29,825 nucleotides of DNA from a virus. Position numbers and translations under genes: made by a program. The notes beneath the pieces are model-generated. The model worked only from the letters and a program-made list of their open reading frames with translations, was not told the origin of the DNA and ran no database searches. The first letter of the stretch is position 1, and the number at the start of each line of letters is the position of its first letter. This document shows positions 12,615-24,354 of the stretch, in pieces. The DNA is taken from IMG/VR virus record IMGVR_UViG_3300030333_005934, positions 3,651-33,475 of that record. One strand, 5' to 3'.

Positions 12615-12642
12615 TTTTTATCTTCAAATAAAAGGAGTTTTT

Positions 12643-12960: not shown

Positions 12961-12966
12961 TCCACC

Positions 12967-12981: not shown

Positions 12982-13041
12982 AATTTATATACGTGAGGAT
13001 CCTATACGAAGGTTTTTCACACAACAAAGTCTATATACTAT

Positions 13042-13311
13042 ATGGGCATCGGTTTCAATCAAGAAGAGGAAGTAGAAGAAGAGTATGTTCCTCTTTATCG
13101 AACGGTAATCGAATGTAATTTTTGCGGTGACGATACTTTAATGAATGTTTACAAAGGATACTGTCAATGTGGAAACTTATATATTTCCGTGAAAGAATCA
13201 GCATCCAAAGTGAGGCACAAGCCTGAATCAAAATGGACTCACTTCAAGACTGTGCATTATAGAAGTGAGCCTCCGCTTATTTACGAAGTGCTTATAGCCG
13301 ACGAAGAATAA
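13042..13311 (+). CDS. small zinc-finger-like protein
   Basis: An 89-residue protein with CNFC (residues 25-28) and CQCG (45-48), spaced like a four-Cys zinc ribbon. The N-terminus is acidic (EEEVEEEYVPLYR), and the C-terminal 40 residues form a probable beta/alpha tail. The start ATG has no clear SD, and TATACT-like sequence lies immediately before it, so a leaderless start is possible but weaker than the other cases. The exact function is unknown. Confidence 0.65.
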   Translation: MGIGFNQEEEVEEEYVPLYRTVIECNFCGDDTLMNVYKGYCQCGNLYISVKESASKVRHKPESKWTHFKTVHYRSEPPLIYEVLIADEE

Positions 13312-13315
13312 CTAA

Positions 13316-13392
13316 GCGCCCGTAGCTCAGCTGGATAGAGCATCGGCCTTCTAAGCCGAGGGTCACAGGTTCGAATCCTGTCGGGCGTGCCA
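13316..13392 (+). tRNA. tRNA-Arg (anticodon TCT)
   Basis: A 77-nt cloverleaf, acceptor GCGCCCG/CGGGCGT, anticodon loop CTTCTAA (TCT) and encoded CCA. It reads AGA and AGG, which are common in the phage genes here. Confidence 0.93.
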
Positions 13393-13398
13393 TATAAC

Positions 13399-13426
13399 TT
13401 TACTTTCTGAAAAGGGAGAGTATAAT
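13399..13426 (+). promoter_or_regulatory. promoter of the ParB-like gene (leaderless type)
   Basis: TTTACT (13399-13404), 16-nt spacer, TATAAT (13421-13426). Only 6 nt separate the -10 from ATG 13433, so transcription should start at or next to the A of the start codon. It lacks the YGT element. Confidence 0.8.
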
Positions 13427-13432
13427 ATTAGT

Positions 13433-14635
13433 ATGAATAAATTAAAACTAAAAACAAATCATAGCGTGAACCGAGCACAATATTATAAAAATGCTGCTCT
13501 TGATATTTTTAAGGCTGGATACCAGGATCCATCTCAAGATCACGGAGACCCCCGACAAATTGAAATTTGGGACTACATTCGAAATAATAATCTGTCAGTG
13601 CGTTTCGAGCCGAACTACAATTTTTCTGAAAGGCTATACGATATTTCAGAGATTGGCATCAATCCCTTGATCACCAACGCGCAATGTCGGGCCTATCGTC
13701 ATGATCCTTCAAAAGTTAAGGAGCTTTACGAAAGATTTTATGAAGTGGAAGAAAAACAAAAGCGACCTTCGATCGGCATGGAATTTGATAATATTTTTTA
13801 TCCCGCTGTCGGTAATCATAGGGCCTTTGCACATGTGAAAGGACAAGTGGAAGGCATGCAGCTTGAATCTCCAGCCATAATCGTTGGTGAATATGATGTT
13901 TCAACTGGACGTCCTATCTCAAAAGATCATCTAAGAGTGCATATGCACAAGATATCAATTAAATCAAACAAACAAACTGGCGATGAGACGGAGAAGGAAT
14001 CGGTAGAAGATTTAGCAATTCAGCTAAAAGTTGCATTTGAATTGGAGAAGGAAGTTAATGAAGAGTTGAGTTCTTTTGATTTTCCAGCTCAGAGAGAGTG
14101 GGGTTTAGAGTGGCTTTCTGAGAACAAATCAGAAACAAAACAAAGAAAAGGCGCAGCAATAAATCAGGCTTTCAATGAAAGGTATGGCGCAGTAGTGCCT
14201 ATGCCAGACGAGAGCATGCAGCCCAAGATATGGTTGCAGCATTTCAAGAAAAACAGTGAAAAATGGGCGCCTGAATTAAACAAAGAAAATCAGCATCGTC
14301 CGAGATTGCAGATTCCTTACTCCACTACATTTCAAATGCTATCTCACAGGCTAAATGTAGAGTTGCAACAGAGAAATCAGACAGGGCTTAAGCAATATGC
14401 TGCGATTGATTTAATGCTGCATCCCGGCAAGGAGGCCACCAGCTTAAAAACTATCGAGAAACGTAGAGAGGAATGGCTGGAAGATTTAACAGAGCGTAAC
14501 TTATTTTTAAGCGCGCCGTATAAAATGCCCTATGTTGATAGAATTGTTTTTGTCAGGCAGGTTGAAATTGATGGCCATGGCCCCGAAGCGTGGGAGTGGA
14601 ATCACCTAGATGAAAGGTTTGAAAAGGTTGATTAA
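13433..14635 (+). CDS. ParB/sulfiredoxin-like domain protein
   Basis: A 400-residue protein. Residues 60-160 fit a ParB-like nuclease domain: ISEIGINPLITNAQ, then IFYPAVGNHRAFAHV with the GNHR loop (127-130) that is diagnostic for the fold, then SPAIIVGEYD. The remaining 240 residues are mostly helical and basic-acidic mixed, with no domain I can name (one segment reads LNVELQQRNQTGLKQYAAI). ParB-like phage proteins may bind DNA, act as nucleases or modify proteins. The gene follows tRNA-Arg and has a strong promoter, but no SD: the predicted mRNA is leaderless. It overlaps the next tiny gene by 1 nt. Confidence 0.7.
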   Translation: MNKLKLKTNHSVNRAQYYKNAALDIFKAGYQDPSQDHGDPRQIEIWDYIRNNNLSVRFEPNYNFSERLYDISEIGINPLITNAQCRAYRHDPSKVKELYERFYEVEEKQKRPSIGMEFDNIFYPAVGNHRAFAHVKGQVEGMQLESPAIIVGEYDVSTGRPISKDHLRVHMHKISIKSNKQTGDETEKESVEDLAIQLKVAFELEKEVNEELSSFDFPAQREWGLEWLSENKSETKQRKGAAINQAFNERYGAVVPMPDESMQPKIWLQHFKKNSEKWAPELNKENQHRPRLQIPYSTTFQMLSHRLNVELQQRNQTGLKQYAAIDLMLHPGKEATSLKTIEKRREEWLEDLTERNLFLSAPYKMPYVDRIVFVRQVEIDGHGPEAWEWNHLDERFEKVD

Positions 14636-14745
14636 TGAATAAATTTCAAAAAGATATAGAGAAGGCAGAGTACGTTTTGTTAATTATTTTAGGCATCGTT
14701 TCATTTTCGATGGTTGCCTATGTTGTAAGCGCGCTTTTTATTTAA
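14635..14745 (+). CDS. tiny membrane protein
   Basis: A 36-residue protein whose C-terminal two thirds is one hydrophobic segment (VLLIILGIVSFSMVAYVVSA) after a charged N-terminus (NKFQKDIEKAE). The start overlaps the ParB-like stop (TAATG), which supports coupled translation. The GGTTG upstream is a poor SD. No function can be given. Confidence 0.55.
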   Translation: MNKFQKDIEKAEYVLLIILGIVSFSMVAYVVSALFI

Positions 14746-14751
14746 AAAAGC

Positions 14752-14779
14752 TTTACTGTTATGAACGTGTTATTATAAT
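14752..14779 (+). promoter_or_regulatory. promoter of the tRNA-Glu/Lys pair
   Basis: TTTACT (14752-14757), a 16-nt spacer with TGT six bases before the -10, and TATAAT (14774-14779). The tRNA-Glu gene starts 12 nt later. Confidence 0.82.
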
Positions 14780-14790
14780 ATAATACGTAT

Positions 14791-14865
14791 GGTCTCATAG
14801 TTTAGTGGTTAGAACACCGGGCTTTCATCCCGGTAGCCGGGGTTCGATTCCCCGTGAGACTACCA
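14791..14865 (+). tRNA. tRNA-Glu (anticodon TTC)
   Basis: A 75-nt cloverleaf with acceptor GGTCTCA/TGAGACT, anticodon loop CTTTCAT (TTC), T-arm CGGGGTTCGATTCCCCG and encoded CCA. Confidence 0.93.
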
Positions 14866-14870
14866 TATAT

Positions 14871-14943
14871 GCCCTCTTAGCTCAGTTGGTAGAGCACCGG
14901 ACTCTTAATCCGTAGGTCGTAGGTTCGATCCCTACAGGGGGTA
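14871..14943 (+). tRNA. tRNA-Lys (anticodon CTT)
   Basis: A 73-nt cloverleaf with acceptor GCCCTCT/AGGGGGT, anticodon loop CTCTTAA and T-arm GTAGGTTCGATCCCTAC. The anticodon is CTT, which reads only AAG. The first anticodon-stem pair is a C-T mismatch. CCA is not encoded. Confidence 0.88.
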
Positions 14944-14956
14944 CTGAGAGAAACAA

Positions 14957-15205
14957 ATGTCAAAGAAAACAGACTTAGAGAATATTAAAAGAATTGTCGA
15001 GGAAGAGGCGATTGAAGTGTTCGTTGAGTACAATGCTCAGTTTGAATTTCGTCACTTTTGCAATGATTTAAAGACTGTTTTTATTTATGAATTGCCGGAG
15101 ACGGAAGTCGAAGTTGATTTTAAGATGACAAAAAACCTTGAGAGAAGACTCAAGGAACTTAGCAAAAGATACACAGTGGGTATTTTTTATCAATCAAAAA
15201 AATAG
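14957..15205 (+). CDS. hypothetical protein
   Basis: An 82-residue protein I do not recognise. It has alternating helical and strand segments (NIKRIVEEEAIEVFVEYN, FRHFCNDLKTVFIYELP, EVEVDFKMTKNLERRLKEL) and ends in YTVGIFYQSKK. It lies 13 nt after tRNA-Lys and may be on the tRNA transcript. The SD is GAGAG, weak. Confidence 0.6.
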   Translation: MSKKTDLENIKRIVEEEAIEVFVEYNAQFEFRHFCNDLKTVFIYELPETEVEVDFKMTKNLERRLKELSKRYTVGIFYQSKK

Positions 15206-15206
15206 T

Positions 15207-15234
15207 TTTATTTTTTAGATTTTGTTGCTATAAT
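15207..15234 (+). promoter_or_regulatory. promoter of purA
   Basis: TTTATT (15207-15212), a 16-nt spacer with TGT six bases before the -10, and TATAAT (15229-15234). The leader to ATG 15300 is about 60 nt and contains a small GCCTC/GAGGC hairpin (15250-15262). Confidence 0.7.
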
Positions 15235-15299
15235 ATTGGTAGCGTGGTTGCCTCAAGGAGGCGGGATATGGGAATGGGGTTTATACAAAAGGAGTTTAA

Positions 15300-16301
15300 A
15301 TGCGTGCGGACGTAGTTATTGGTTTACAACATGGGGATGAGGCTAAGGGAAAAGTTACACATTATTTGTGTAAATACAAAGATTATACGCACGTTTTAAG
15401 ATTCAATGGCGGGTGCAACGCTGGACATACGATCTATCATGAGGGTCGTAAATTTGTAACACACCACATACCAGCAGGTGTATTTTATGGTATTAAATCT
15501 ATCATAGGTCCTGGCTGTGTTGTTAATGTAGAACAGTTTTTTAAAGAACTAGCGGAATTGGAAGAGGGTGGAGTTAATGCGAAGGGAAAGATTTTCATTG
15601 CCAAAAATGCTCACGTTATTTCCGACGCTCACATTCAAGAGGAACATTCAGAGAAGAAGATTGGCACAACCAAAAGAGGAAACGGACCAGCATACCGTGA
15701 CAAGTACGCTCGCCTTGGTGTACAGGCAAAGGATGTTTCCGCTCTAAAACCATATCTAATTGATTTATATGAGGAATTCTATAGTATCCCCTGTAGTGTC
15801 AACATTCTATGTGAAGGCGCACAAGGCTTTGAGTTGGATATCGACTGGGGAGATTACCCCTATGTAACTTCAAGCCACTGCGGAGTTGCTGGTGCCTTGC
15901 TCAATGGTATTCCACACAACTCAGTTGAAGATGTATGGGGAGTGGGCAAGGTATATGAAACCTACGTCGGCGCGAAACAGTTTGAGCCAATCGACGAGCC
16001 GGAAGAGAGAGAGTTTTTTGCTCGCATGCGTGAGGCAGGCGAGGAGTATGGCGCCACCACTGGACGTCCAAGACAGTGTAATTATTTAAACTTGTCAAAC
16101 TTGAAAAGATCGATAGCAGTCAATGCTGTTAATAAGTTAGTGCTTAATAAAGTTGATGTTTTGAGATCTTTGGACACTTGGAGACTAATTAATAACGATG
16201 AAATAATTTCATTCTCTGGAGAGAGTGAGATGCTTGATTTCGTAAAGAAAGAACTATCAGATGTAGATATATATTTTTCAGATTCCAAACACAGGATTTA
16301 G
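15300..16301 (+). CDS. purA: adenylosuccinate synthetase, short archaeal-like form (PurA/PurZ family)
   Basis: A 333-residue PurA-family enzyme joining Asp to a 6-oxopurine nucleotide. The P-loop GDEAKGK keeps Asp13, the catalytic base of PurA. NAGHT supplies His43, IGTTKRGNGPAYRDKYARLG the IMP site, YGATTGRPRQC the Asp-binding loop and NKVD the guanine specificity. It is about 100 residues shorter than bacterial PurA (about 430), the size of archaeal PurA and phage PurZ. PurZ enzymes that make 2-aminoadenine usually have Ser at the Asp13 position, so I favour IMP as substrate; a GTP-using PurZ0-type activity on dGMP is not excluded. Good SD (AAAAGGAG) before ATG 15300. The phage GMP reductase could supply IMP. 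Confidence 0.88.
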   Translation: MRADVVIGLQHGDEAKGKVTHYLCKYKDYTHVLRFNGGCNAGHTIYHEGRKFVTHHIPAGVFYGIKSIIGPGCVVNVEQFFKELAELEEGGVNAKGKIFIAKNAHVISDAHIQEEHSEKKIGTTKRGNGPAYRDKYARLGVQAKDVSALKPYLIDLYEEFYSIPCSVNILCEGAQGFELDIDWGDYPYVTSSHCGVAGALLNGIPHNSVEDVWGVGKVYETYVGAKQFEPIDEPEEREFFARMREAGEEYGATTGRPRQCNYLNLSNLKRSIAVNAVNKLVLNKVDVLRSLDTWRLINNDEIISFSGESEMLDFVKKELSDVDIYFSDSKHRI

Positions 16302-16321
16302 CTAAGTTGGAGGTCGTTTCA

Positions 16322-16591
16322 GTGAAGAGCAAGATATTTCATGAGCGATTGGATTTAATCAACCAAGCAAAGCATAAGTTAACGACCATGCAAAACAAGA
16401 ATGTGTATACCCTAGATATTGAGGCAATGAGGCTGCTAGACGCCTTGTCGAGCGAGCTTCAAGAGATTTTGACTGAGAATATTCTTTTACAGAATAAAAA
16501 CAAAGTTTTATCGGCAAGAATCGAGCGTTTTAGGAGAAAAAAAAGTGCCAAGAGTTTACGTTCCAAACCCGGCAGAGAAGACAATCAATGA
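16322..16591 (+). CDS. hypothetical helical protein (GTG start)
   Basis: An 89-residue helical protein with a Lys/Arg-rich C-terminus (RIERFRRKKSAKSLRSKPGR). The start is GTG 16322 because a strong SD (GGAGG, 16309-16313) lies 8 nt upstream; the in-frame TTG 16307 is part of that SD context. The middle looks coiled-coil (ELQEILTENILLQNKNKVL). It overlaps the next gene by 47 nt. Function unknown. Confidence 0.6.
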   Translation: MKSKIFHERLDLINQAKHKLTTMQNKNVYTLDIEAMRLLDALSSELQEILTENILLQNKNKVLSARIERFRRKKSAKSLRSKPGREDNQ

Positions 16592-16718
16592 AGCGCTAAA
16601 AGAGCTTTATCTTTTGAAAACCGCAATAAAAACGGAAAGTGAAGAAAAGATTAGCAATAGAATTGATAAAATAAGACAAGCATTAATGGACGTTGCAGAG
16701 GGATTAAAAAATCCTTAA
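16545..16718 (+). CDS. small hypothetical protein (GTG start)
   Basis: A 57-residue protein starting at GTG 16545 behind an AGGAG SD (16532-16536, spacing 8), inside the end of the previous gene. The sequence is helical (TINEALKELYLLKTAI, then KISNRIDKIRQALMDVAEG). Its stop codon lies inside the -35 box of the next promoter. No function is recognised. Confidence 0.55.
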   Translation: MPRVYVPNPAEKTINEALKELYLLKTAIKTESEEKISNRIDKIRQALMDVAEGLKNP

Positions 16719-16742
16719 CTATAGTTTGCACGTGCGTATAAT
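16715..16742 (+). promoter_or_regulatory. promoter at the head of the SH3-like array (leaderless type)
   Basis: TTAACT (16715-16720), a 16-nt spacer with CGT six bases before the -10, and TATAAT (16737-16742). ATG 16749 follows after 6 nt, so the mRNA should be leaderless. Confidence 0.83.
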
Positions 16743-16748
16743 TATATC

Positions 16749-16931
16749 ATGGACATTGGCGATTTAGTCAAGTGGTCAGATTCTAGTCGTAGTTATCTTG
16801 TCGGCCACATGGGTGTTATTCTAAGGCTAGAAAGTATAAGTAATAATGAAGGCGCCTGGATACGCTGGCTTACTGATGAGTACGGACCTCAAGAAGCCTG
16901 GACGCCGCTAATATGTATTGAAAAAGTATAG
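16749..16931 (+). CDS. SH3-like array protein 1
   Basis: A 60-residue protein that starts MDIGDLVKW, then GHMGVILRLE and AWIRWL before a WTPLICIEKV end. This is the family pattern of the array: a conserved N-terminus, a Gly-Val/Ile turn, a V-x-W strand and a final Trp/Leu-Glu strand, as in small SH3/KOW-type barrels. It is the first gene after a strong promoter and has no SD. It ends in EKV rather than ESR, so it lacks the conserved junction to the next gene. Function unknown. Confidence 0.8.
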   Translation: MDIGDLVKWSDSSRSYLVGHMGVILRLESISNNEGAWIRWLTDEYGPQEAWTPLICIEKV

Positions 16932-16950
16932 TTCAAGTGGAGTATTGATG

Positions 16951-17154
16951 ATGACAAAGACATATATTGTTACACCAGATACCGACATGTCTGATGTGAG
17001 GAACATAACCTGTAATACTATTGAGGAATGTGCCGAGGCAGCGAAAGTTTTTTTTCTAACGCCATGTCAAATCATTTCTAATGATGGCACGGAGTCTGCC
17101 TCGGTAGAAAAAAACGGAAGCATTAAAAATATCTTAACTAATTCCAGTTCGTAG
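16951..17154 (+). CDS. hypothetical protein within the array
   Basis: A 67-residue protein unlike the SH3-like family. It has a beta-alpha start (TKTYIVTPDTDMSDV) and a Cys-containing helix (TCNTIEECAEAAKVFFL). I chose ATG 16951, 8 nt after a GGAG SD (16939-16942); ATG 16948 and an upstream TTG 16918 are possible. Its 3' end contains the -35 of the next promoter. Function unknown. Confidence 0.6.
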   Translation: MTKTYIVTPDTDMSDVRNITCNTIEECAEAAKVFFLTPCQIISNDGTESASVEKNGSIKNILTNSSS

Positions 17155-17161
17155 ATATATT
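17134..17161 (+). promoter_or_regulatory. promoter inside the array (leaderless type)
   Basis: TTAACT (17134-17139), a 16-nt spacer with CGT six bases before the -10, and TATATT (17156-17161). ATG 17169 follows after 7 nt. Confidence 0.78.
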
Positions 17162-17168
17162 TTGATAA

Positions 17169-17360
17169 ATGAAAGTGGGAGACATAGTACAGCCTCGTGT
17201 CCGCGCTGATGGAATGTTCACTGATGAATATCGATATGGTGTGATTCTTGATTGTTATGAGGACGATTATGGAATAGTGTACTATGAAATTCATTGGATG
17301 AGTGACCAAGAATGGTGGAAGGAAGATGAATTGCGACTTGTCAGCGACGGAAAGAAATAG
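17169..17360 (+). CDS. SH3-like array protein 2
   Basis: A 63-residue family member: MKVGDIVQPR, YRYGVILDCYED, YYEIHWMSDQEWW, LRLVSDGKK. No SD is visible and the promoter predicts a leaderless message, yet translation can continue into the next gene through overlap. Function unknown; SH3/KOW-like fold inferred from the pattern of strands. Confidence 0.8.
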   Translation: MKVGDIVQPRVRADGMFTDEYRYGVILDCYEDDYGIVYYEIHWMSDQEWWKEDELRLVSDGKK

Positions 17361-17571
17361 CTCAGCATTTCCAAAAGTAGGCGATATTATTGGATGCAAT
17401 GACGGTGATATCGGCGTAGTTATTTCAACTAAAGAAGACCCATACTACTTTTCTAAAGAAAGAATTGTGGTTGAAGCGCGCTGGATTAATGCTGGCTTGT
17501 GTACGGACGCATGGTGTTCTGAAGATTTCAACACTGGAAAAGAGATGTTTCACGTCATCAGCAGGGCATGA
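17326..17571 (+). CDS. SH3-like array protein 3
   Basis: An 81-residue version with an N-terminal extension before FPKVGDIIGC, followed by DIGVVISTKED, IVVEARWI and FHVISRA. I take ATG 17326; TTG 17338 is an alternative and would be closer to the family length. It overlaps the previous gene by 35 nt and the next by 4 nt (ATGA). The extension may be real or a relic of a changed junction. Function unknown. Confidence 0.65.
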   Translation: MNCDLSATERNSSAFPKVGDIIGCNDGDIGVVISTKEDPYYFSKERIVVEARWINAGLCTDAWCSEDFNTGKEMFHVISRA

Positions 17572-17741
17572 AGGTCGGTGATTTGGTGTCAGTGCTCTAC
17601 GAAACAAGACGATATTATCTTGTCTTGGAGAAGTTAGACAATAATACCCATGGCGAAGATAGATACGTTTTGTACGGCTTGAGAGACGGTGTTAAGAGAA
17701 CGCAAGTGTATTCAGAAATTAAAGTTGTCAGCGAGGCTTAA
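17568..17741 (+). CDS. SH3-like array protein 4
   Basis: A 57-residue member: MKVGDLVSVLYE, YLVLEKLD, DRYVLYGLRDG and KVVSEA. It starts in the stop of the previous gene (ATGA) and ends TAA directly before the next ATG. The first 20 nt repeat the array junction core with one change. Its C-terminus is SEA, not SESR, and the GAGG within that codon run can serve as SD for the next gene. Confidence 0.78.
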   Translation: MKVGDLVSVLYETRRYYLVLEKLDNNTHGEDRYVLYGLRDGVKRTQVYSEIKVVSEA

Positions 17742-17939
17742 ATGAAGATTGGCGACTTAGTGAGTCTTAAATCAGGCTACTCATACGAAACTGCTGATAA
17801 GGATATTTACTATCGATCCGGCGTTATTATAATGATTGATGAGTACGACACATCTGGCCTATGGTATCAAGTTCAATGGGGACAAGAGAGTCTTTGGCAC
17901 AGAGCTGGTGATTTGGAGTTGGTAAATGAAAGTGGGTGA
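17742..17939 (+). CDS. SH3-like array protein 5
   Basis: A 65-residue member: MKIGDLVSLKSG, YRSGVIIMIDEYD, LWYQVQWGQESLW and LELVNESG. The end GAG-TTG-GTA-AAT-GAA encodes the LEL-V-N-E residues and also supplies the GGAG SD and ATG of the next gene, with a 14-nt overlap (17926-17939). Confidence 0.82.
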   Translation: MKIGDLVSLKSGYSYETADKDIYYRSGVIIMIDEYDTSGLWYQVQWGQESLWHRAGDLELVNESG

Positions 17940-18147
17940 TTTGGTTATAGATTTTGGCGATGGTGATATTGGCATTGTCGTGAGTGAAATCCGTAGTTAT
18001 CCTGCGGAAGTTAATAATAAGCGCGCCTATCCCAACGGCCACAAATACGTTATGGTCTCTTGGCCTTCTAATAATCACGAGCCTGTACAAATGGATATGC
18101 TGGCTGTTAAAAATGGCTGGGTGGAGATTATAAATGAAAGTCGGTGA
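17926..18147 (+). CDS. SH3-like array protein 6
   Basis: A 73-residue member: MKVGDLVIDFGDGDIG, then IVVSEIRSY, KYVMVSW and GWVEIINESR. The segment after residue 25 is longer than in most members. Its C-terminal codons carry the next SD (GGAG) and start. The overlap with the next gene is 14 nt (18134-18147). Confidence 0.82.
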   Translation: MKVGDLVIDFGDGDIGIVVSEIRSYPAEVNNKRAYPNGHKYVMVSWPSNNHEPVQMDMLAVKNGWVEIINESR

Positions 18148-18319
18148 TTTAGTAAAAAACATTCACGGCCTTTACCCTGCGAATATGGGGATTATAGTAG
18201 AGGTGAGCGAGCCGCAACTAAAAAATTCCAACGCATGCCCTTATAGGGTGCATTGGTTTGAACACGGCTACGAGTCGGCTTGGATGAGAGCCACGTGGCT
18301 GGAGAAAATAGATGAATAA
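18134..18319 (+). CDS. SH3-like array protein 7
   Basis: A 61-residue member: MKVGDLVKNIHG, MGIIVEVSE, PYRVHWFEHGYESAW and WLEKIDE. It ends DE-stop rather than SESR, and the following gene is not an SH3-like member; its start overlaps by 8 nt (ATGAATAA). Confidence 0.82.
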   Translation: MKVGDLVKNIHGLYPANMGIIVEVSEPQLKNSNACPYRVHWFEHGYESAWMRATWLEKIDE

Positions 18320-18605
18320 TGAAAGAATAGAATGTGCTGACGGATTCAGTATGAGTGTACAAGCGAGTAGGTTTAATTATTGTGAACCTCGCATTGACAA
18401 CGCCGATAAGTATGTCGCAGTGGAGATCGGCTTTCCGAATGATTATGAATCTTTGTTGGTCGATTATGCGGAGGATAAAGAAAACTATACTGGCACTGTA
18501 TATGGATATGTCCCCTCGGACATTGTGACTCTGGTTTGCGCCAAGCATGGTGGGGTTGTGAAAGGGGAAATGCCAAATGGTATTCCATATCTGAGTGTGA
18601 AATGA
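18312..18605 (+). CDS. hypothetical protein inserted in the array
   Basis: A 97-residue protein with no similarity to the SH3-like members that I can see. It is acidic, with beta segments (KYVAVEIGF, YTGTVYGYVPSDIVTLVCA) and two Cys. It overlaps both neighbours (8 nt before, 4 nt after), so it is translated as part of the chain. It starts MNNERIE and ends LSVK without the SESR signature. Function unknown. Confidence 0.7.
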   Translation: MNNERIECADGFSMSVQASRFNYCEPRIDNADKYVAVEIGFPNDYESLLVDYAEDKENYTGTVYGYVPSDIVTLVCAKHGGVVKGEMPNGIPYLSVK

Positions 18606-18793
18606 AAACAGGTGACCTAGTTAAAGTTTTACCAGCGAGGTTTGGTCACTATATTGTTATTGGAAGATCAGAAATAGATGAGGATTATGTCGGTCGAAGA
18701 GTATACTGGGACTTGGCGCCTCTACCTGATACTCCATTTGATCATGGTGGACCGATGGATGAGAAGTATATTGAGGTTGTAAGTGAAGCATGA
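18602..18793 (+). CDS. SH3-like array protein 8
   Basis: A 63-residue member: MKTGDLVKVLPAR, YIVIGRSEID, RVYWDLAPL and YIEVVSEA. ATG 18602 overlaps the previous stop (ATGA). An upstream in-frame ATG at 18536 would add 22 residues with no family match and is rejected. The tail codes for the GTG start of the next gene with an 11-nt overlap. Confidence 0.8.
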   Translation: MKTGDLVKVLPARFGHYIVIGRSEIDEDYVGRRVYWDLAPLPDTPFDHGGPMDEKYIEVVSEA

Positions 18794-18938
18794 ATTAACA
18801 GAAGAAATTGAGAATATTCTTATTGAGCAATGCAAGGCTCGATGTCTCGATGACGAAGAGGATTTCAAAGCTGTGATTGAGGTTGTTGAGGGTGCCATTC
18901 AAGAATGGATTGACAACCGCTGTCCCGGATGTAGATAA
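18783..18938 (+). CDS. small helical protein inserted in the array (GTG start)
   Basis: A 51-residue protein starting at GTG 18783 inside the VVSEA end of array protein 8, with GAGG (18774-18777) as SD. It is helical and acidic (HELTEEIENILIEQCKARC, then FKAVIEVVEGAIQEWID) and ends in NRCPGCR. It does not share the SH3-like pattern but uses the array's junction to start. Its TAA overlaps the next ATG by 1 nt. Confidence 0.6.
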   Translation: MKHELTEEIENILIEQCKARCLDDEEDFKAVIEVVEGAIQEWIDNRCPGCR

Positions 18939-19120
18939 TGAAAGTCGGTGATTTAGTTAAGGTAAAGACAAGACATTACGGCACAAAATTAGGCGTGTTA
19001 GTTGAGAGTTACAACCGTCCCGATTGGCGCGGCGGTGAGTGGCGCGTAAAAATGCTGGACCATCTACGTGACGTACATGCTGCTGGGTGTGATATAGAGG
19101 TCATCAGTGAAAGTCGGTGA
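18938..19120 (+). CDS. SH3-like array protein 9
   Basis: A 60-residue member: MKVGDLVKVKTRHYG, LGVLVESYN, EWRVKMLDHL and CDIEVISESR. The last codons (GAGGTCATCAGTGAAAGTC) hold the next gene's SD, its GTG start and its first residues. The overlap is 14 nt (19107-19120). Confidence 0.84.
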   Translation: MKVGDLVKVKTRHYGTKLGVLVESYNRPDWRGGEWRVKMLDHLRDVHAAGCDIEVISESR

Positions 19121-19283
19121 TTTAGTTAAACTAATTGGCTCATTCCATGGAGAACAAGTCGTCGGAGTGATAATTGAAACCAACGTGTTTACACGCGGCT
19201 GGCATACAATGTCTTGCTCGATACAGGCCGAACCAATACATTGGCCCGAATCGCAGTTGGAGGTTGTCAGTGAAAGTCGGTGA
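19107..19283 (+). CDS. SH3-like array protein 10 (GTG start)
   Basis: A 58-residue member: MKVGDLVKLIGS, VVGVIIETNVF, CSIQAEPIHW and LEVVSESR. It begins at GTG and its first 24 nt are identical to those of array protein 12 at 19710. The GGAGG in its own tail is the SD for the GIY-YIG gene, overlapping 14 nt (19270-19283). Confidence 0.82.
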   Translation: MKVGDLVKLIGSFHGEQVVGVIIETNVFTRGWHTMSCSIQAEPIHWPESQLEVVSESR

Positions 19284-19530
19284 TTGGTGGTTTTACGTTT
19301 TACTTTGTGCTGACGGTACTTATTATGCTGGTGTGACAACGAACATTGATAGAAGATTGTACGAACACAATCATACTAAACGCGGCGCAAAATACACTAG
19401 AACAAGAAGGCCAGCAAAGATTGTTTTATCGGAGTCACACCCTGATAGATCTTCAGCCATGAGGGCTGAGATCAGGTTTAAGCGCCTAAAACGGAAACAA
19501 AAAGAAGAGATTATTAATGAAAGTCGGTGA
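19270..19530 (+). CDS. GIY-YIG endonuclease (UPF0213/YhbQ-like) carrying array ends
   Basis: An 86-residue single-domain GIY-YIG nuclease. The two motif strands are WWFYVLL (residues 6-12) and YYAGVTT (18-24), followed by Arg28 in IDRRLYEHN, KYTRTRRPAK and the catalytic Glu67 in SAMRAEIRFKRLKRKQK. This is the compact UPF0213 form. The frame starts at GTG 19270 with MKVGD, the same leader as the SH3-like genes, and ends IINESR-stop; both ends are 14-nt array overlaps. An ATG upstream at 19174 in the same frame would include part of array protein 10 and is not needed. It may cut DNA to promote spread or recombination of array modules; that is inference. It may equally be a passenger. Confidence 0.88.
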   Translation: MKVGDWWFYVLLCADGTYYAGVTTNIDRRLYEHNHTKRGAKYTRTRRPAKIVLSESHPDRSSAMRAEIRFKRLKRKQKEEIINESR

Positions 19531-19723
19531 CTTGGTTAAATTTCGCATAACAACTTTGCTCGATAGGCCATTCGGATGTCTTCCTGATATTAATGATGAG
19601 AGATGGTCTGGCCATGGGATAGTTTTAGAAATTTCTGGTGGCAATGTCAATGTTCTGTGGCCTAAAGAAGGCGCGCAGCTAGTTGATAATCGATTCTTGG
19701 AGTTAGTAAGTGAAAGTCGGTGA
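19517..19723 (+). CDS. SH3-like array protein 11
   Basis: A 68-residue member: MKVGDLVKFRITTLL, GHGIVLEISG, VNVLWPKEGA and LELVSESR. The start lies in the INESR end of the GIY-YIG gene (overlap 19517-19530). The tail (GGAG, then GTG) starts the next gene, overlapping 14 nt. Confidence 0.83.
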   Translation: MKVGDLVKFRITTLLDRPFGCLPDINDERWSGHGIVLEISGGNVNVLWPKEGAQLVDNRFLELVSESR

Positions 19724-19874
19724 TTTAGTTAAAGTAAAGGGACGTCCTGAATACGGTGCTGGCAAGATCGTTAGATTCTACGCCATGCATGGCACTATTT
19801 TGGTCGAGTTTCCTAAAAAGGAAACTATGATATACTGCGATTATTCAGAGGTAGAGAATCATGAAAAGACCTGA
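19710..19874 (+). CDS. SH3-like array protein 12 (GTG start)
   Basis: A 54-residue member: MKVGDLVKVKGRPEYG, AGKIVRFYAMHG, TILVEFPKKE and YSEVENHEKT. It ends HEKT-stop, so the tail has diverged, yet it still overlaps the following unrelated gene by exactly 14 nt (19861-19874), with GAGG nearby as SD. Confidence 0.78.
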   Translation: MKVGDLVKVKGRPEYGAGKIVRFYAMHGTILVEFPKKETMIYCDYSEVENHEKT

Positions 19875-20064
19875 GTGTGTTGAATGTGGAGATGAATTTA
19901 ATCCTAGACGATTTGCTCTTGGTTATTATACTTGTCTTGAGTGCGGAGATAATGAAGCCGCTAAGCAAATTTTACACAAGTCTCGTTGTACAGCACCCGC
20001 ATACAATAAAGGCGGATATATGTATATCTCTAGCAAGAGGATGGCAAGAGATGCTGGGAAATAA
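19861..20064 (+). CDS. small zinc-ribbon protein at the end of the first array segment
   Basis: A 67-residue protein with CVEC (6-9) and CLEC (25-28) pairs, a four-Cys zinc site, separated by GDEFNPRRFALGYYT, a spacing like small DksA/TraR-type or phage zinc fingers. A later Cys is in SRCTAP. It begins within array protein 12 using the usual 14-nt overlap though it is not SH3-like. Nucleic-acid binding is possible; function unknown. Confidence 0.75.
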   Translation: MKRPECVECGDEFNPRRFALGYYTCLECGDNEAAKQILHKSRCTAPAYNKGGYMYISSKRMARDAGK

Positions 20065-20068
20065 TGCC

Positions 20069-20096
20069 TTGACTATAACTAATTCGTCAATATAAT
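20069..20096 (+). promoter_or_regulatory. promoter inside the array (leaderless type)
   Basis: TTGACT (20069-20074), 16-nt spacer with CGT six bases before the -10, TATAAT (20091-20096). ATG 20103 follows after 6 nt. Confidence 0.85.
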
Positions 20097-20102
20097 TGTT
20101 TT

Positions 20103-20303
20103 ATGATAAAAAGAATAGTAAAGGTTGGCGATTTGGTTAAATGGACCCGCCCCGGAGCAGAAGATATTGGGATGATTATTAACCTAGATCATTCATTGTG
20201 CAACGACTCAGATGCAGTTATTCATTGGTTTGGAACGCCAGAATTCAGCGGTCTATACACTCTCAACCATAGATATTTAGAGGTTTTTGATGAATCCGGG
20301 TGA
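20103..20303 (+). CDS. SH3-like array protein 13
   Basis: A 66-residue member with five extra residues: MIKRIVKVGDLVKW, then IGMIINLDH, AVIHWF and YLEVFDESG. The leaderless promoter fixes the start at ATG 20103; the rest of the N-terminus aligns with MKVGDLVK. Its tail encodes the next start with a 14-nt overlap (20290-20303). Confidence 0.8.
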   Translation: MIKRIVKVGDLVKWTRPGAEDIGMIINLDHSLCNDSDAVIHWFGTPEFSGLYTLNHRYLEVFDESG

Positions 20304-20472
20304 TAAGTTAATCTTGGTAAAGAAAGAAGGTACAAGTCAAAGCTATTTGCCATACGGATCGATTTGTAGTTTTATTTGCAGCTTTGATGTTTATATCTGC
20401 CTTGAACATCAAGGTAAGGAGATGTTAATCCATAAAGATCTTTTGGAGCAACTCGATGATGCAGCCGGGTGA
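20290..20472 (+). CDS. SH3-like array protein 14
   Basis: A 60-residue member, more diverged: MNPGDKLILVKKEG, YGSICSFICSFD, YICLEHQGKEMLI and LEQLDDAAG. Lys-Val is changed to Asn-Pro, but the Gly-Asp that provides the previous stop codon is kept. TTG 20287 is possible. The overlap with the next gene is 14 nt. Confidence 0.75.
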   Translation: MNPGDKLILVKKEGTSQSYLPYGSICSFICSFDVYICLEHQGKEMLIHKDLLEQLDDAAG

Positions 20473-20671
20473 CTTAGTTTTCCACATTGAAGACGCGAAG
20501 GACTACGAAAATCCTCCTCCCGGTCTTATAACTGAGGTCTACAACATTGGCGATCAGGTTGAGGCTATTGTTTATTTCTCTGATCGTGAGTTTGGAGAGT
20601 ATCATCTAATAGAAAATTTGATATATGTTGATAATTGGCTTGACTACAAAGATCCAGTGCCTATGTTTTGA
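20459..20671 (+). CDS. SH3-like array protein 15 (last of first array)
   Basis: A 70-residue member: MQPGDLVFHIED, PGLITEVYNIG, VEAIVYFSDRE and then a longer end without ESR (WLDYKDPVPMF). ATG 20456 directly upstream is possible, but the family alignment favours 20459. It ends the array 15 nt before the tRNA-Ile gene. Confidence 0.76.
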   Translation: MQPGDLVFHIEDAKDYENPPPGLITEVYNIGDQVEAIVYFSDREFGEYHLIENLIYVDNWLDYKDPVPMF

Positions 20672-20686
20672 TTGTAAGTAGATTAC

Positions 20687-20763
20687 TGGCCCATAGCTCA
20701 GTAGGTTAGAGCGCCATTCTTATAAAGTGGGTGTCACGGGTTCAAGTCCCGTTGGGCCAACCA
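20687..20763 (+). tRNA. tRNA-Ile (anticodon TAT)
   Basis: A 77-nt cloverleaf with perfect acceptor TGGCCCA/TGGGCCA, anticodon loop CTTATAA (TAT) and encoded CCA. It reads ATA, a codon many hosts decode only with a modified CAT tRNA. Confidence 0.92.
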
Positions 20764-20768
20764 TATAC

Positions 20769-20845
20769 GGACCTTTAGCTCAGTTGGTTAGAGCCCCCCG
20801 CTCATAACGGGGTAGTCCTCGGTTCGAGTCCGAGAGGGTCCACCA
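20769..20845 (+). tRNA. tRNA with CAT anticodon (Met, or Ile2 if modified)
   Basis: A 77-nt cloverleaf with acceptor GGACCTT/AGGGTCC, anticodon loop CTCATAA, T-arm CTCGGTTCGAGTCCGAG and encoded CCA. The first acceptor pair is G-C, unlike bacterial initiator tRNA, so elongator Met is more likely. Ile2 by lysidine cannot be excluded. Confidence 0.88.
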
Positions 20846-20880
20846 TAATTTTTTACTCACGTACATATACGAGGGTTACA

Positions 20881-21051
20881 ATGAGAGAGACTATTTTTAT
20901 TTTTATGCTTTCCTTTTTGCTTGGCGGTTGCTATGTTCCTTATCCAAGCGTAGGTAAAGGAGCTACGATCCGTGCCTATGAAGTGCATTGTCAAAAGTTT
21001 TTAACTAATCACGGCAGGGTCATTGAGCGCTGCCGTCGTCACTATAGGTAA
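20881..21051 (+). CDS. small lipoprotein
   Basis: A 56-residue protein: MRETIFIFMLSFLLGGC ends in a good lipobox (LGGC, Cys17). The mature part is short, basic and Cys-containing (RAYEVHCQKFLTNHGR, ERCRRHYR). It is similar in size to phage outer-membrane spanin subunits, but no inner spanin is seen beside it. There is no clear SD; a CTCACG promoter-like motif lies upstream. Confidence 0.65.
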   Translation: MRETIFIFMLSFLLGGCYVPYPSVGKGATIRAYEVHCQKFLTNHGRVIERCRRHYR

Positions 21052-21060
21052 GGTAAGAAA

Positions 21061-21552
21061 ATGAGTCTTTCGCATTTTATGTTTAAACCAAAGTACGGCA
21101 TTGAGATTGTTCACAAAGTTATTAGATGCTTTGTGGACGATCATTTGAGATGGCATGATTACGGAGTAGATTGGCACATCAAGCCGCTAAAAAACAAAGA
21201 GGGCTGGTATGAATTAGAAGCTAACCCTTCTTATGATGGAAGTGTCTTGGAGGGGTTCACTGAAACTAGCTTTAGTGATTTGCCTCTTTCAGGAAAAGAA
21301 TTGACTGAGGATATGATGATTCTTTTGGTCGAGGCTGGTATCGCTTGGAATTTGAATAAGGACCATCCAGAGGATCCAGCCGAATATTGCCTCGAAGATG
21401 TGGAGCTTACCAGTGTTATCACCGCGCTGTCAGCCGAAGATTCGCACGTCTTTTCGCCGTGGGATAACCGATGCTATGTTGTCAACGTGAAGACTGGCGA
21501 AGCCAAACACCATGATATAACTGATCTTATTTTTTCTTTGGCAGCAGCCTAG
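21061..21552 (+). CDS. hypothetical protein
   Basis: A 163-residue acidic protein I do not recognise. It begins MSLSHFMFKPKYGIEIVHK and has a mixed alpha/beta composition with many aromatic residues (WHDYGVDWHIKPL, FSPWDNRCYVVNVKTG). It follows the small lipoprotein by 9 nt, with a moderate SD (AGGTAAG). Its 3' end overlaps the -35 of the next promoter. Function unknown. Confidence 0.65.
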   Translation: MSLSHFMFKPKYGIEIVHKVIRCFVDDHLRWHDYGVDWHIKPLKNKEGWYELEANPSYDGSVLEGFTETSFSDLPLSGKELTEDMMILLVEAGIAWNLNKDHPEDPAEYCLEDVELTSVITALSAEDSHVFSPWDNRCYVVNVKTGEAKHHDITDLIFSLAAA

Positions 21553-21577
21553 ACTTTTAAACTTTCGTAACTATACT
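21550..21577 (+). promoter_or_regulatory. promoter of the CCHC zinc-knuckle gene
   Basis: TAGACT (21550-21555), 16-nt spacer with CGT six bases before the -10, TATACT (21572-21577). Confidence 0.78.
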
Positions 21578-21608
21578 TATAACGTAACCGCCACAACGGA
21601 GGGTTGAG

Positions 21609-22394
21609 ATGGCGTACACTACTGACAAAAACGGAAACTACAAGCGCACTGTTCGATGTGGATACTGCTATGAGGTTGGACATAACAAAAGCTCATGCCC
21701 ACAAAAGAAGCAGAATCACAGAGACCAGATTGTTGAATATGAAAGGCAACTTGCAGAAGATAACTTCACTGATGACTGGGAGCGTAACTATGCACAGCGC
21801 CAGCTTGATCGCCACAAGGAACAACTGAACAGGACTGTCAATCGTGGCAAGCATCGCAAGTGTTCTTACTGCAAACAAGAGGGCCATACTCGACGGACAT
21901 GTAAATATCGCAAGGCTGATATGAATGATTGGGCCGATAAGTGCCTCGCCGCCCGCGAAAAGTTTGCAGAAAGCATGACTGCTGCGGGTTTTGGCGTCGG
22001 TGCTTTGGCTTATCGCAAAGATTACTACAGTGGCGATCGCAAAGATCTTGTACTAATTGAGCGAGTTGCATGGAAAATGATTAATCATAAAGTCGCAGTT
22101 GGTCAAGGCAATCATTATGCCGATGTTTGCTATGGTCGGTCGTTGACTCCAGATAGCTACTACCCAAATGGACGTCTATTTCAATTGCAGCTTCCTTCTT
22201 CGGTTAGCAACATCAATAACGAGGAGTTTCCTCATCGCTTTGAGGATCGTTGTCCCGTTATCGTGTCACCCGCGCCTGTCTCAGTACCGGAGGATTTCTT
22301 GACTAAAGAGTCGGCCATGGCGGCTGCCAAGTTTAGTGAAGAGTTTAACGATTCACGACCTTATGACTACAATGGCGTTGAATATGATGACTAG
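21609..22394 (+). CDS. protein with two CCHC zinc knuckles
   Basis: A 261-residue protein with two exact C-x2-C-x4-H-x4-C zinc knuckles: Cys17-Cys20-His25-Cys30 (CGYCYEVGHNKSSC) and Cys85-Cys88-His93-Cys98 (CSYCKQEGHTRRTC). They are joined by a charged helix. Zinc knuckles of this type bind single-stranded nucleic acid in retroviral nucleocapsid and many eukaryotic proteins; they are much rarer in phages. The remaining 160 residues are of no known family. The gene has its own promoter and a strong SD (GGAGGG). RNA or ssDNA binding is a reasonable inference. Confidence 0.85.
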   Translation: MAYTTDKNGNYKRTVRCGYCYEVGHNKSSCPQKKQNHRDQIVEYERQLAEDNFTDDWERNYAQRQLDRHKEQLNRTVNRGKHRKCSYCKQEGHTRRTCKYRKADMNDWADKCLAAREKFAESMTAAGFGVGALAYRKDYYSGDRKDLVLIERVAWKMINHKVAVGQGNHYADVCYGRSLTPDSYYPNGRLFQLQLPSSVSNINNEEFPHRFEDRCPVIVSPAPVSVPEDFLTKESAMAAAKFSEEFNDSRPYDYNGVEYDD

Positions 22395-22398
22395 AATG

Positions 22399-22426
22399 TT
22401 TACTAACATAGTCTTGTTCTTATAAT
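22399..22426 (+). promoter_or_regulatory. promoter of the 89-residue gene
   Basis: TTTACT (22399-22404), 16-nt spacer with TGT six bases before the -10 (ending TGTTCT), TATAAT (22421-22426). Confidence 0.85.
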
Positions 22427-22444
22427 TCTTTCACGGAGGTTTAG

Positions 22445-22714
22445 ATGGAAAAAACAATCACGATTAATAGGGCATCAGCCGAGGCCCTTCTGCATGTAGC
22501 GAATGAGGTATTAGGCACGACAAACGCAACTGGGCCTGATAACTTGGAAAGGGCTGAAGTTATTGTTAAAAACAATGTTCGCAGGAATCTTACTGAAGCT
22601 GTTTATCAACTAGAGAAGTCTCTTTATGAGATCGATGCATGCGAAGGTAGTGGGAAGACAGAGGCAAAAGAGAATGATCGATCATTTTCCAAAGAGAATT
22701 GGATAGCGCGATAA
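22445..22714 (+). CDS. hypothetical protein
   Basis: An 89-residue, mostly helical protein that I do not recognise. It opens with a beta strand (MEKTITINRASAEALLHV) and has a long helical middle (VRRNLTEAVYQLEKSLYEI) with a charged tail (AKENDRSFSKENW). It has a private promoter and a strong SD (GGAGG). Confidence 0.65.
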   Translation: MEKTITINRASAEALLHVANEVLGTTNATGPDNLERAEVIVKNNVRRNLTEAVYQLEKSLYEIDACEGSGKTEAKENDRSFSKENWIAR

Positions 22715-22721
22715 ATTATTC

Positions 22722-22749
22722 TTAACTATTACAAACTCGTTTCTATACT
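22722..22749 (+). promoter_or_regulatory. promoter of the MGYRS-type gene
   Basis: TTAACT (22722-22727), 16-nt spacer with CGT six bases before the -10, TATACT (22744-22749). Confidence 0.84.
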
Positions 22750-22768
22750 CTAGGTGAAGGGGGAAACC

Positions 22769-23155
22769 ATGGGTTATCGTTCGCAAGTAGTATTGGCAAT
22801 CTCACCTGAAGCTGCACCAGCGTTTATGGCCCTCTGTGCCAAGCATCCAGAAGTTATGGAACTCTGCCAAGATGCCGACGATTTCACTTCTGGCTATGAG
22901 CAGCCCGGTGATTACTTTATGCACTGGTCAAGCATTAAGTGGTATGAAGATTACCCAGAGATTGATGCTATATATGCATTTGTTTGCTCTTTGGAAGAAG
23001 AGGATTTGACTAATTATGGCGAGCCATCAGTGCCAGAAGGCACAGATTGGAACGATTGTTTCAAGTTTATTCGCATCGGTGAAGACCCTGACGATTACGA
23101 CCAGCGAGGCTATGGTTTTCCAGATATAATCATGTATCGCTCTATCTCTTTTTAG
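22769..23155 (+). CDS. phage MGYRS-type conserved protein
   Basis: A 128-residue protein starting MGYRSQVVLAISPEAA, a start I recall as common to a family of phage early proteins without known function. The body is acidic with aromatic pairs (DYFMHWSSIKWYED) and ends in GFPDIIMYRSISF. I use ATG 22769, behind a GGGGG SD; the in-frame GTG 22754 is less likely. It has its own promoter. Confidence 0.72.
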   Translation: MGYRSQVVLAISPEAAPAFMALCAKHPEVMELCQDADDFTSGYEQPGDYFMHWSSIKWYEDYPEIDAIYAFVCSLEEEDLTNYGEPSVPEGTDWNDCFKFIRIGEDPDDYDQRGYGFPDIIMYRSISF

Positions 23156-23156
23156 C

Positions 23157-23184
23157 TTTACTGATTAGCTTTCGTTCCTATACT
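23157..23184 (+). promoter_or_regulatory. promoter of the 211-residue gene
   Basis: TTTACT (23157-23162), 16-nt spacer with CGT six bases before the -10 (CGTTCC), TATACT (23179-23184). Confidence 0.85.
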
Positions 23185-23213
23185 TGAGGCGTACCCCGAT
23201 TACGGAGAACAAA

Positions 23214-23849
23214 ATGACCAAGTGCAAGAGTATCAAATCTAAACTTCAAATGATATCAAGGATTGATACCCTCCTCGCGCGTGATGTTGAATTCACTGAT
23301 TGGGAAAAGTCCTTTCTGTCTTCGATTAAGGAAGGCATCAAACGGTATGGAAGCCTGACAGGAAAGCAAGAGTCTATCCTTCAACGTATTGAAACTGGTA
23401 AAGATCCAGCTGTCATTGCTCAGCGTCAGGATTGGAAAGCTAATTATAATGATGACATGCGCGCCAAAATGAAAATTGCTGCGCGGTATTATTGGAATAA
23501 TCCCCCCTACTTTGCCGATTTGGCTAAGCGAGTTTTGAATGATAACGCATTTATTCCAACCGAAAAGCAGTTTCGTGCGATGGTTGAGAATAAATATGTT
23601 CAAAAAGTGCTAGACAATATGAATTCGGTTCCTACGTTTCCTGTGGGTTCGATGGCGCAGGTTCGAAAGACTGCAACTCGGCCATATCTTAACATTGGAA
23701 AAATTGTAGGCAAGATGGTTATGATTATTGAATATCCTGACAAGGTTGCAGGTGCGGCAAAAGGTGCGATTCCAGTGGTTGTACTGCCGATCGGCTCCTC
23801 CGAAACTATTGAGACAGAAGTTCGCTGGCTTAAAAAAGCCCGAGGTTAA
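23214..23849 (+). CDS. hypothetical protein
   Basis: A 211-residue basic protein I do not recognise. Residues 25-65 (FTDWEKSFLSSIKEGIKRYG, then LTGKQESILQRI) resemble a small helical module seen in various phage proteins. The C-terminal half is beta-rich (GKMVMIIEYPDKVA, IPVVVLPIGSSE). ATG 23214 is preceded by CGGAG; an upstream ATG 23184 lies in the promoter and is rejected. It has its own promoter and is followed directly by a zinc-ribbon gene. Confidence 0.68.
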   Translation: MTKCKSIKSKLQMISRIDTLLARDVEFTDWEKSFLSSIKEGIKRYGSLTGKQESILQRIETGKDPAVIAQRQDWKANYNDDMRAKMKIAARYYWNNPPYFADLAKRVLNDNAFIPTEKQFRAMVENKYVQKVLDNMNSVPTFPVGSMAQVRKTATRPYLNIGKIVGKMVMIIEYPDKVAGAAKGAIPVVVLPIGSSETIETEVRWLKKARG

Positions 23850-23850
23850 A

Positions 23851-24030
23851 ATGTTTGATTGGTCTATTAAACCACCTAAAGTTACCTATAATTACTACTG
23901 CGGCTCTTGTGGCTGTAAGTATATCAACAGGCCCGGTGCCACACGATCGGCTTGTTCGGCCAACTGTTACGCTTGTGGCAGTAGCCGCATCATTCGCTAC
24001 GAGTGGGCTACTGACGACGAAGAAAAATAG
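23851..24030 (+). CDS. small zinc-ribbon protein
   Basis: A 59-residue protein with CGSCGC and CSANCYAC clusters (Cys at 17, 20, 22, 35, 39, 42), a rubredoxin-like zinc ribbon layout. The N-terminus MFDWSIKPPKVTYNYY is hydrophobic-aromatic, and the C-terminus is acidic. It starts 1 nt after the previous stop. Likely metal-binding; partner unknown. Confidence 0.7.
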   Translation: MFDWSIKPPKVTYNYYCGSCGCKYINRPGATRSACSANCYACGSSRIIRYEWATDDEEK

Positions 24031-24031
24031 C

Positions 24032-24059
24032 TTTACTTGTGAAAGACCGGTCTTATGAT
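24032..24059 (+). promoter_or_regulatory. promoter of tRNA-Leu
   Basis: TTTACT (24032-24037), 16-nt spacer, TATGAT (24054-24059). The YGT position reads CGG. The tRNA begins 12 nt later. Confidence 0.78.
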
Positions 24060-24070
24060 TCGACTATCAA

Positions 24071-24156
24071 GGCACTGTGGCGGAATTGGTATACGCAACG
24101 GACTTAAAATCCGTCGCCCTTTGGGATTGAGGGTTCGAGTCCCTCCAGTGCTACCA
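24071..24156 (+). tRNA. tRNA-Leu (anticodon TAA)
   Basis: An 86-nt class II tRNA with acceptor GGCACTG/CAGTGCT, anticodon loop CTTAAAA (TAA), a variable arm CGCCCTTTGGGATTG, T-arm AGGGTTCGAGTCCCT and encoded CCA. Confidence 0.92.
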
Positions 24157-24313: not shown

Positions 24314-24354
24314 AGAAGTGTAAGACGAGCCACTAGTTACTACAGGAGATTATG

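Follow-up and report, generated by a model that had tools for sequence, protein, structure and literature searches.

Why does the DNA at the boundaries between small phage genes stay nearly constant while the genes themselves vary widely? The question is raised by a stretch of 29,825 nucleotides (nt), positions 3,651 to 33,475 of the IMG/VR record IMGVR_UViG_3300030333_005934, an uncultivated viral contig of 33,475 bases. We refer to this whole stretch as the window. It carries two arrays of small genes for proteins of the SH3/KOW fold, at 16749-20671 and 28162-29077, and at twelve places a 14-nt overlap, TGAAAGTCGGTGAT or a variant of it, serves both as the end of a gene and as the beginning of its successor. 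We propose, with a probability of roughly 0.7, that this junction is a translation-coupling element which also provides a short stretch of homology for the exchange of modules in cassette regions of T4-related phages; the proposal rests on comparative sequence analysis.

The junction encodes the end of one protein and the start of the next

The consensus of the junction is about 32 nt long, TGGAGGTnATCA-RTG-AAAGTCGGTGAYTTGGTnA. Its upstream frame reads Leu-Glu-Val-Ile/Val-Ser/Asn-Glu-Ser-Arg-stop and its downstream frame Met-Lys-Val-Gly-Asp-Leu-Val. The following example holds the Shine-Dalgarno (SD) sequence, the start codon, the stop TGA and Gly-Asp in one stretch:

19258-19290, + strand: GGAGGTTGTCA-GTG-AAAGTCGGTGAT

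Copies of TGAAAGTCGGTGAT with at most two mismatches number 13 in the window, against 0.24 expected in shuffles. An SD sequence of at least 4 nt precedes 87% of the overlapped starts, 55% of the other module starts and 15% of control positions. Among overlapped tails, 230 of 238 (97%) use GAG for the Glu codon that supplies it, as compared with 110 of 140 non-overlapped ones (79%), and the background share of GAG among the Glu codons of module bodies is about 41%. After LEVx, exactly four residues follow in 233 of the 238 overlapped proteins, mostly SESR or NESR, whereas non-overlapped relatives have 0-12 varied residues at this place. Because the four-residue tail tracks the overlap and varies where the overlap is missing, the start DNA of the next gene imposes the tail of the protein before it. 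An initial annotation of the window, made from its sequence alone, had suggested that the conserved tail is set by the needs of DNA and translation, and these figures bear this out.

The overlap is common among related arrays

Relatives were gathered in three ways, by the junction word, by a module protein and, independently of the word, by two flanking proteins (the adenylosuccinate-synthetase-like protein and the MoxR-type AAA ATPase). Word-selected loci were left out of the key counts, since they had been fetched by the very word under test. The remaining set neither used the word nor overlaps word-selected loci and comprises 66 loci with 447 distinct module-module boundaries. Exactly 14 nt of overlap were found in 326 of these 447 adjacent pairs, and in 5 of 332 pairs of large neighboring open reading frames (ORFs) that served as control in the flanking-protein loci. 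A separate count gave 367 of 484 module pairs.

Arrays built in this way are found at more than 60 viral loci besides that of the window. The collection holds 147 loci with at least four modules, overlapping loci of the same contigs included, and a single hidden Markov model (HMM) finds 1,522 distinct proteins of the family. The arrays consist of tightly packed small genes on the same strand with overlapping stops and starts, and the longest uninterrupted chains reach 13 modules. Within ten long contigs the word occurs in a single orientation and is mostly clustered; a reversed control gave zero matches.

Conservation of the junction and the needs of translation

The initial annotation described variable protein bodies between constant junctions. 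Among the relatives, random pairs are indeed 75.5% identical in the junctions and 27.4% in the bodies; junction codons evolving no slower than the bodies would have spoken against a cassette role and were not observed. Much of this conservation is explained by the SD sequence, the start codon, MKVGD and the stop. The alternative that survives best starts from here and holds that the junction is kept only for translation and protein ends, while illegitimate recombination joins genes, selection keeps the intact ones and breakpoints merely appear at boundaries. We regard it as unlikely. The conserved positions do coincide with the features just listed, and the third position of the Val codon at -5 is free, as this explanation would have it. 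Against it stands one base, the last of a Val codon, at which a choice between C (GTC/CGG) and A (GTA/AGG) leaves the residues of both frames unchanged. Here C:A is 217:30, where Val usage would predict 51% and the two codons together 31%, in counts that are not phylogenetically independent. The bias is gone in starts with a Gly codon other than GGT (23 C, 26 A) and persists where the upstream frame of a GGT start is closed (52 C, 9 A, 9 T). The overlapping frame itself is thereby ruled out as the source of the C, and the word appears to move as DNA rather than to be maintained by that frame. The same word has also been acquired by unrelated families.

Whole modules differ between close relatives

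We surveyed pure insertions and deletions (indels) among close relatives, flanked by DNA of 85-100% identity. Twelve such events lie within arrays, and ten of them have both edges at a junction. When events were placed at random in the same arrays, the mean was 1.7 and the maximum 6, and none of 5,000 trials reached ten. At the ten junction-bounded indels the edges share 5-35 nt of identity. Single comparisons give the same picture. Loci L152 and L156 share 99.3% identity along the 14 kb that lead into the array, past which several whole units differ, at several junctions, the difference between L137 and L138 is one 176-bp module, and L104 and L136, about 88% identical where alignable, have partly common modules in a different order. 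Number and order of modules thus both differ between related genomes, bounded by junctions. The initial annotation had read the junction as a recombination point for module gain, loss and shuffling; the junction-bounded gains, losses and swaps of whole units in close relatives, the shuffled order in L104 and L136 and the unrelated genes in module slots described below support this reading.

We would explain these observations as follows. The junction overlaps two genes, supplying the last residues of one and the SD sequence, start and first residues of the next, and it probably couples translation down the chain. Because each unit starts and ends with nearly the same DNA, it would also be a ready short homology block. 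Recombination between junctions could then insert, delete or swap whole genes, and the remaining genes would keep their start, ribosome site and stop. A slot might accept any gene, whose ends would subsequently gain junction-coded residues. The exchange would be performed by homologous recombination, probably by a RecA/UvsX-type system of the phage, and a fast-turning repertoire may serve interaction with the host, be it takeover or counter-defence. A more far-reaching version takes the junction as an evolvability element, that is, a coding and self-repairing recombination site of an integrase-free cassette system that runs on the phage's own homologous recombination. Phages would by this means continuously reshuffle an SH3/KOW-like host-interaction repertoire and take up foreign genes whatever their reading frame. 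This extension is tentative, and we think the odds are against it.

Several points weigh against the junction as a site of exchange. Two of the twelve in-array indels are not at junctions, and one edge in the comparison of L152 and L156 (L152:16590) is off a junction. Other spacings occur in about a quarter of module pairs. Searches of annotated phages and of the nearest isolates found no cultured phage with such an array. All array sequences are metagenome assemblies, and short repeats can mislead assemblers, a caveat tempered by the shared tracts being shorter than usual assembly k-mers. Finally, selection for intact genes alone would also leave breakpoints near gene boundaries, which favors a junction kept for translation only; the junction identity shared by the indel edges speaks against that explanation.

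The arrays of the window

Exact 14-nt overlaps are found at eight starts of the first array (17926, 18134, 19107, 19270, 19517, 19710, 20290 and 20459) and at four of the second (28343, 28503, 28672 and 28853); the other boundaries of the first array are overlaps of 4 or 1 nt, abutting or spaced. The initial annotation had placed the 14-nt overlap at most junctions of the main array, which was too strong, as only about half have it. Its seven exact copies of the 14-mer are all where it put them. At 18939, however, the word does not mark a 14-nt overlap, since the preceding gene ends in a different frame, at an earlier TAA, and overlaps by only 1 nt. Its count of about fifteen paralogues stands in so far as there are about 15 SH3-like ORFs, 12 by the family HMM and three by eye (17302-17571, 20103-20303 and 20290-20472), but one supposed module (19270-19530) is a GIY-YIG nuclease and no paralogue. 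At least five ORFs of the main array are non-SH3 (16918-17154, 18312-18605, 18783-18938, the GIY-YIG gene at 19270-19530, and 19861-20064). The second array is a run of five by the ORF list and the family profile. The features are given below, with their basis in brackets; confidence of AlphaFold models is the predicted local distance difference test (pLDDT).

16749-20671, + strand for all genes: main array, about 15 SH3-like modules and at least five non-SH3 genes (ORF list, HMM, Pfam)
16749-16931, +: module MDIGDLV..., first of the array, start not at a junction; relative in L144 73% (ORF list, HMM)
16918-17154, +: non-SH3 ORF
17169-17360, +: module MKVGDIV... (ORF list, HMM)
17302-17571, +: SH3-like ORF with internal KVGDIIG..., exact start uncertain, ATGA overlap with the next (ORF list, by eye)
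17568-17741, +: module MKVGDLVSVL... (ORF list, HMM)
17742-17939, +: module MKIGDLVSLK..., weak DUF2158 match (E value 0.0035) below cut-off (Pfam, HMM)
17926-18147, +: module, 14-nt junction with the preceding module (HMM)
18134-18319, +: module, 14-nt junction at its start, modelled as a five-strand SH3-like barrel, pLDDT 92.5 (HMM, AlphaFold)
18312-18605, +: non-SH3 ORF of 97 residues without Pfam match (ORF list, Pfam)
18602-18793, +: module MKTGDLVKVL... (HMM)
18783-18938, +: non-SH3 gene of 51 residues; relatives in L131 and L144 end in junction-coded NESR (relatives)
18938-19120, +: module with an exact 14-mer and just a 1-nt overlap with the preceding gene (word scan, HMM)
19107-19283, +: module with a 14-nt junction on each side; 82% DNA identity to L129:8001-8168 (HMM, alignment)
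19270-19530, +: GIY-YIG nuclease in a module slot, junction-coded start MKVGDWWFYV and tail IINESR (Pfam, relatives)
19517-19723, +: module with junctions at both ends, modelled as SH3/KOW-like, pLDDT 82.4 (AlphaFold)
19710-19874, +: module with a junction at its start; 85% DNA identity to L129:8429-8593 (HMM, alignment)
19861-20064, +: non-SH3 CxxC-rich gene; relative in L133 ends in junction-coded DESR (relatives)
20103-20303, +: SH3-like ORF ...VGDLVKW... (ORF list; relatives found)
20290-20472, +: SH3-like ORF MNPGDKL..., 14-nt overlap with the preceding ORF (ORF list, sequence reading)
20459-20671, +: module MQPGDLV..., last of the main array, 14-nt overlap with the preceding ORF (ORF list, HMM)
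28162-28356, +: second array, module 1 (HMM)
28343-28516, +: second array, module 2, 14-nt junction (HMM)
28503-28685, +: second array, module 3, 14-nt junction (HMM)
28672-28866, +: second array, module 4, 14-nt junction (HMM)
28853-29077, +: second array, ORF 5, MKAGDIL..., 14-nt junction (word scan)

Besides the array genes, the window has eight dispersed tRNA genes (12461-24156), two of them immediately after the main array (20687-20845). An adenylosuccinate synthetase-like gene at 15300-16301 matches phrog_1211 ('2-aminooxy adenylosuccinate synthetase') and has the N-terminal loop GDEAKGK; a link to modified purine DNA is possible. A MoxR-type AAA ATPase and the gene next to it (phrog_1314, labelled HNH endonuclease), at 24352-26883, adjoin arrays in many relatives. 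At 6544-8109 lies a phage-encoded GroEL of 521 residues with a full-length match to phrog_5725.

Unrelated genes in module slots

The junction is not confined to SH3-like genes. Thirty-nine families not detected as SH3-like end in it, and 26 of them also have ordinary-ended relatives. That unrelated families share the tail is a further reason to regard it as DNA-imposed. Two of these families were named by eye, as SWIM-like CxC and MazG-like proteins, and another is a DUF2061 membrane protein. Between L142 and L242, whose flanks are 99% identical, a non-SH3 Cys-containing ORF of 75 residues, for which Pfam gave no match, is present in the former and missing from the latter, with both limits exactly at junctions. 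In the window, the GIY-YIG nuclease (PF01541, E value 1e-16) and the module at 19517 sit between the modules at 19107 and 19710; the counterparts of these two in L129 flank a different gene of 94 residues, whose relative in L148 has another N-terminus. Relatives of the nuclease are carried near arrays. Only those in L290 and L276 have the same junction-coded tail, and the start MKVGDWWFYV is found in none. At L266:14299-14794 a single open frame fuses a GIY-YIG nuclease to an SH3-like module with DVNREMKVGDLVK at the joint, and by its sequence this would be a natural fusion of two array genes.

Carrier phages and their recombination genes

The carriers are large, uncultured and mainly marine phages. 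Their T4-like terminase, with Flavobacterium phage immuto (46%) and Microcystis phage Mel-JY01 (43%) as the nearest isolates, points to a relation to T4. A scan of Mel-JY01 and of immuto up to its last 10 kb gave no convincing modules and no junctions. Among annotated phages there was no near-DNA relative of the window; tblastn of one module gave no matches and of another weak partial matches only, and junction DNA matched phages only in part, over 17-23 nt. A junction-like site in phage Det7 was rejected, as it lies on the opposite strand to the annotated Det7 genes. No relative was seen in a scan of bacterial and archaeal genomes, and a literature search of partial coverage found nothing describing such an array.

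The recombination machinery was surveyed in ten long contigs of 185-293 kb. A RecA-family protein is encoded in all ten and a GIY-YIG protein in three; a tyrosine integrase, as in integrons, and a serine resolvase were found in none of the ten. The presence of the RecA family throughout, together with the lack of integrase and resolvase, makes a general recombination pathway acting on short homology more likely than a dedicated enzyme, as far as gene content can tell. We consider it very unlikely that the junction is the target of a site-specific recombinase or a GIY-YIG homing endonuclease that drives cassette movement. The GIY-YIG gene in a junction-bounded slot of the window and its relatives near other arrays would fit such a role, but three of ten contigs rule it out as the universal driver, no integrase or resolvase is there to replace it, and the length of breakpoint identity varies.

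It is hardly plausible that the presence and absence of units reflect assembly chimeras at repeated words of 14-33 nt. The available sequences are metagenomic contigs only, but several independent pairs of contigs show differences of this kind, the shared tracts are short, and junction-coded ends on unrelated genes recur in many independent contigs. Simple tandem duplication and divergence of one gene, with no exchange between arrays, would account for homologous modules with a common junction, but can practically be dismissed, as 99%-identical backgrounds that differ by whole non-homologous units already contradict it, as do the differing order in related arrays and the unrelated genes in module slots.

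The SH3/KOW-like proteins

The initial annotation had called the modules SH3-like, and the two modelled by AlphaFold, at 18134 and 19517, are small barrels of this kind. Foldseek matched PsaE, NdhS, the KOW domain of NusG/Spt5 and SPbeta YorP (2heq) with template modelling scores of about 0.6-0.8; the E values are weak and the fold is consistent. In a sequence profile search the NusG KOW domain ranks first (E value 0.002). Pfam cut-offs were not passed in the window, where DUF2158 reached at best 17.5 bits against 22.3 and DUF1918 14.4 against 24. Among 80 members searched at an E value of 0.01, two matched DUF2158 (best 0.002) and one DUF1918, so that there is no confident family, and none of the 80 matched the anti-phage defence profiles of PADLOC. 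The modules are thus alike in fold to PsaE, NusG KOW, YorP, DUF2158 and DUF1918, but with Pfam cut-offs unmet the function of these proteins cannot be transferred to them. The ratio of nonsynonymous to synonymous substitution in the bodies is about 0.18 (303 pairs), which indicates purifying selection, and the bodies are therefore used proteins. Binding of proteins or nucleic acids is common among small SH3/KOW-like domains, and since this accessory repertoire turns over rapidly, its members may interact with variable host factors.

Comparison with known systems

How mosaic phage genomes arise with their genes unbroken has been debated for a long time, and arguments have been made for homology at gene boundaries as well as for random joining followed by selection. 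The arrays offer hundreds of copies of one boundary word, nearly identical genomes in which single units differ at that word, and unrelated genes both with and without it; the idea of boundary homology is therefore directly testable. A diverse family of some 1,500 SH3/KOW-like phage proteins emerges from the arrays as well; since they turn over fast, they are candidate factors in host interaction.

In integron cassette arrays, small genes without promoters of their own are separated by a conserved site, and the content of the array can be exchanged. The phage arrays are alike in having small genes, a conserved site between genes and exchangeable content, and differ in that the ten whole contigs encode no integrase family and the breakpoint identity is of variable length.

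A parallel in layout is the nin region of lambdoid phages, whose genes are mostly not paralogous. In lambda, the small genes of this region are packed tightly into a chain, and their stops and starts overlap at ATGA (PMC8022706, citing Kroger and Hobom 1982). As with the arrays, this is a one-strand chain of small non-essential genes joined by overlapping stop/start motifs, and its gene content varies between related phages. Its motif, however, is a short ATGA, whereas the word described here has about 32 nt with a 14-nt overlap, codes protein ends and joins mostly paralogous SH3-like genes, and the exchange of units at the word is directly visible. The neighborhood also differs, with purA, tRNAs and an AAA ATPase instead of the location in the lambdoid early right operon, between the replication genes and Q.

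In T4-like phages, the shuffling of genes has been attributed to repeated regulatory elements termed PeSL (Arbiol 2010 and Comeau 2014, as cited in PMC4503421). The arrangement is similar, a repeated short element between accessory genes at which recombination is thought to shuffle genes. A PeSL is a promoter and stem-loop between genes (PMC4503421), while the element here lies inside two coding frames and contains an SD sequence and a start. In the array region neither promoter-like sites (18 against 12.1 expected, standard deviation 3.3) nor terminator-like sites (2 against 2.9 expected) indicate a PeSL-type promoter with stem-loop. By this comparison the array system would resemble both the nin region and PeSL cassettes, with an element that is longer than ATGA, lies within two frames and marks the proteins. 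Unlike in these two systems, the element is common to one very large paralogous family and to dozens of unrelated ones.

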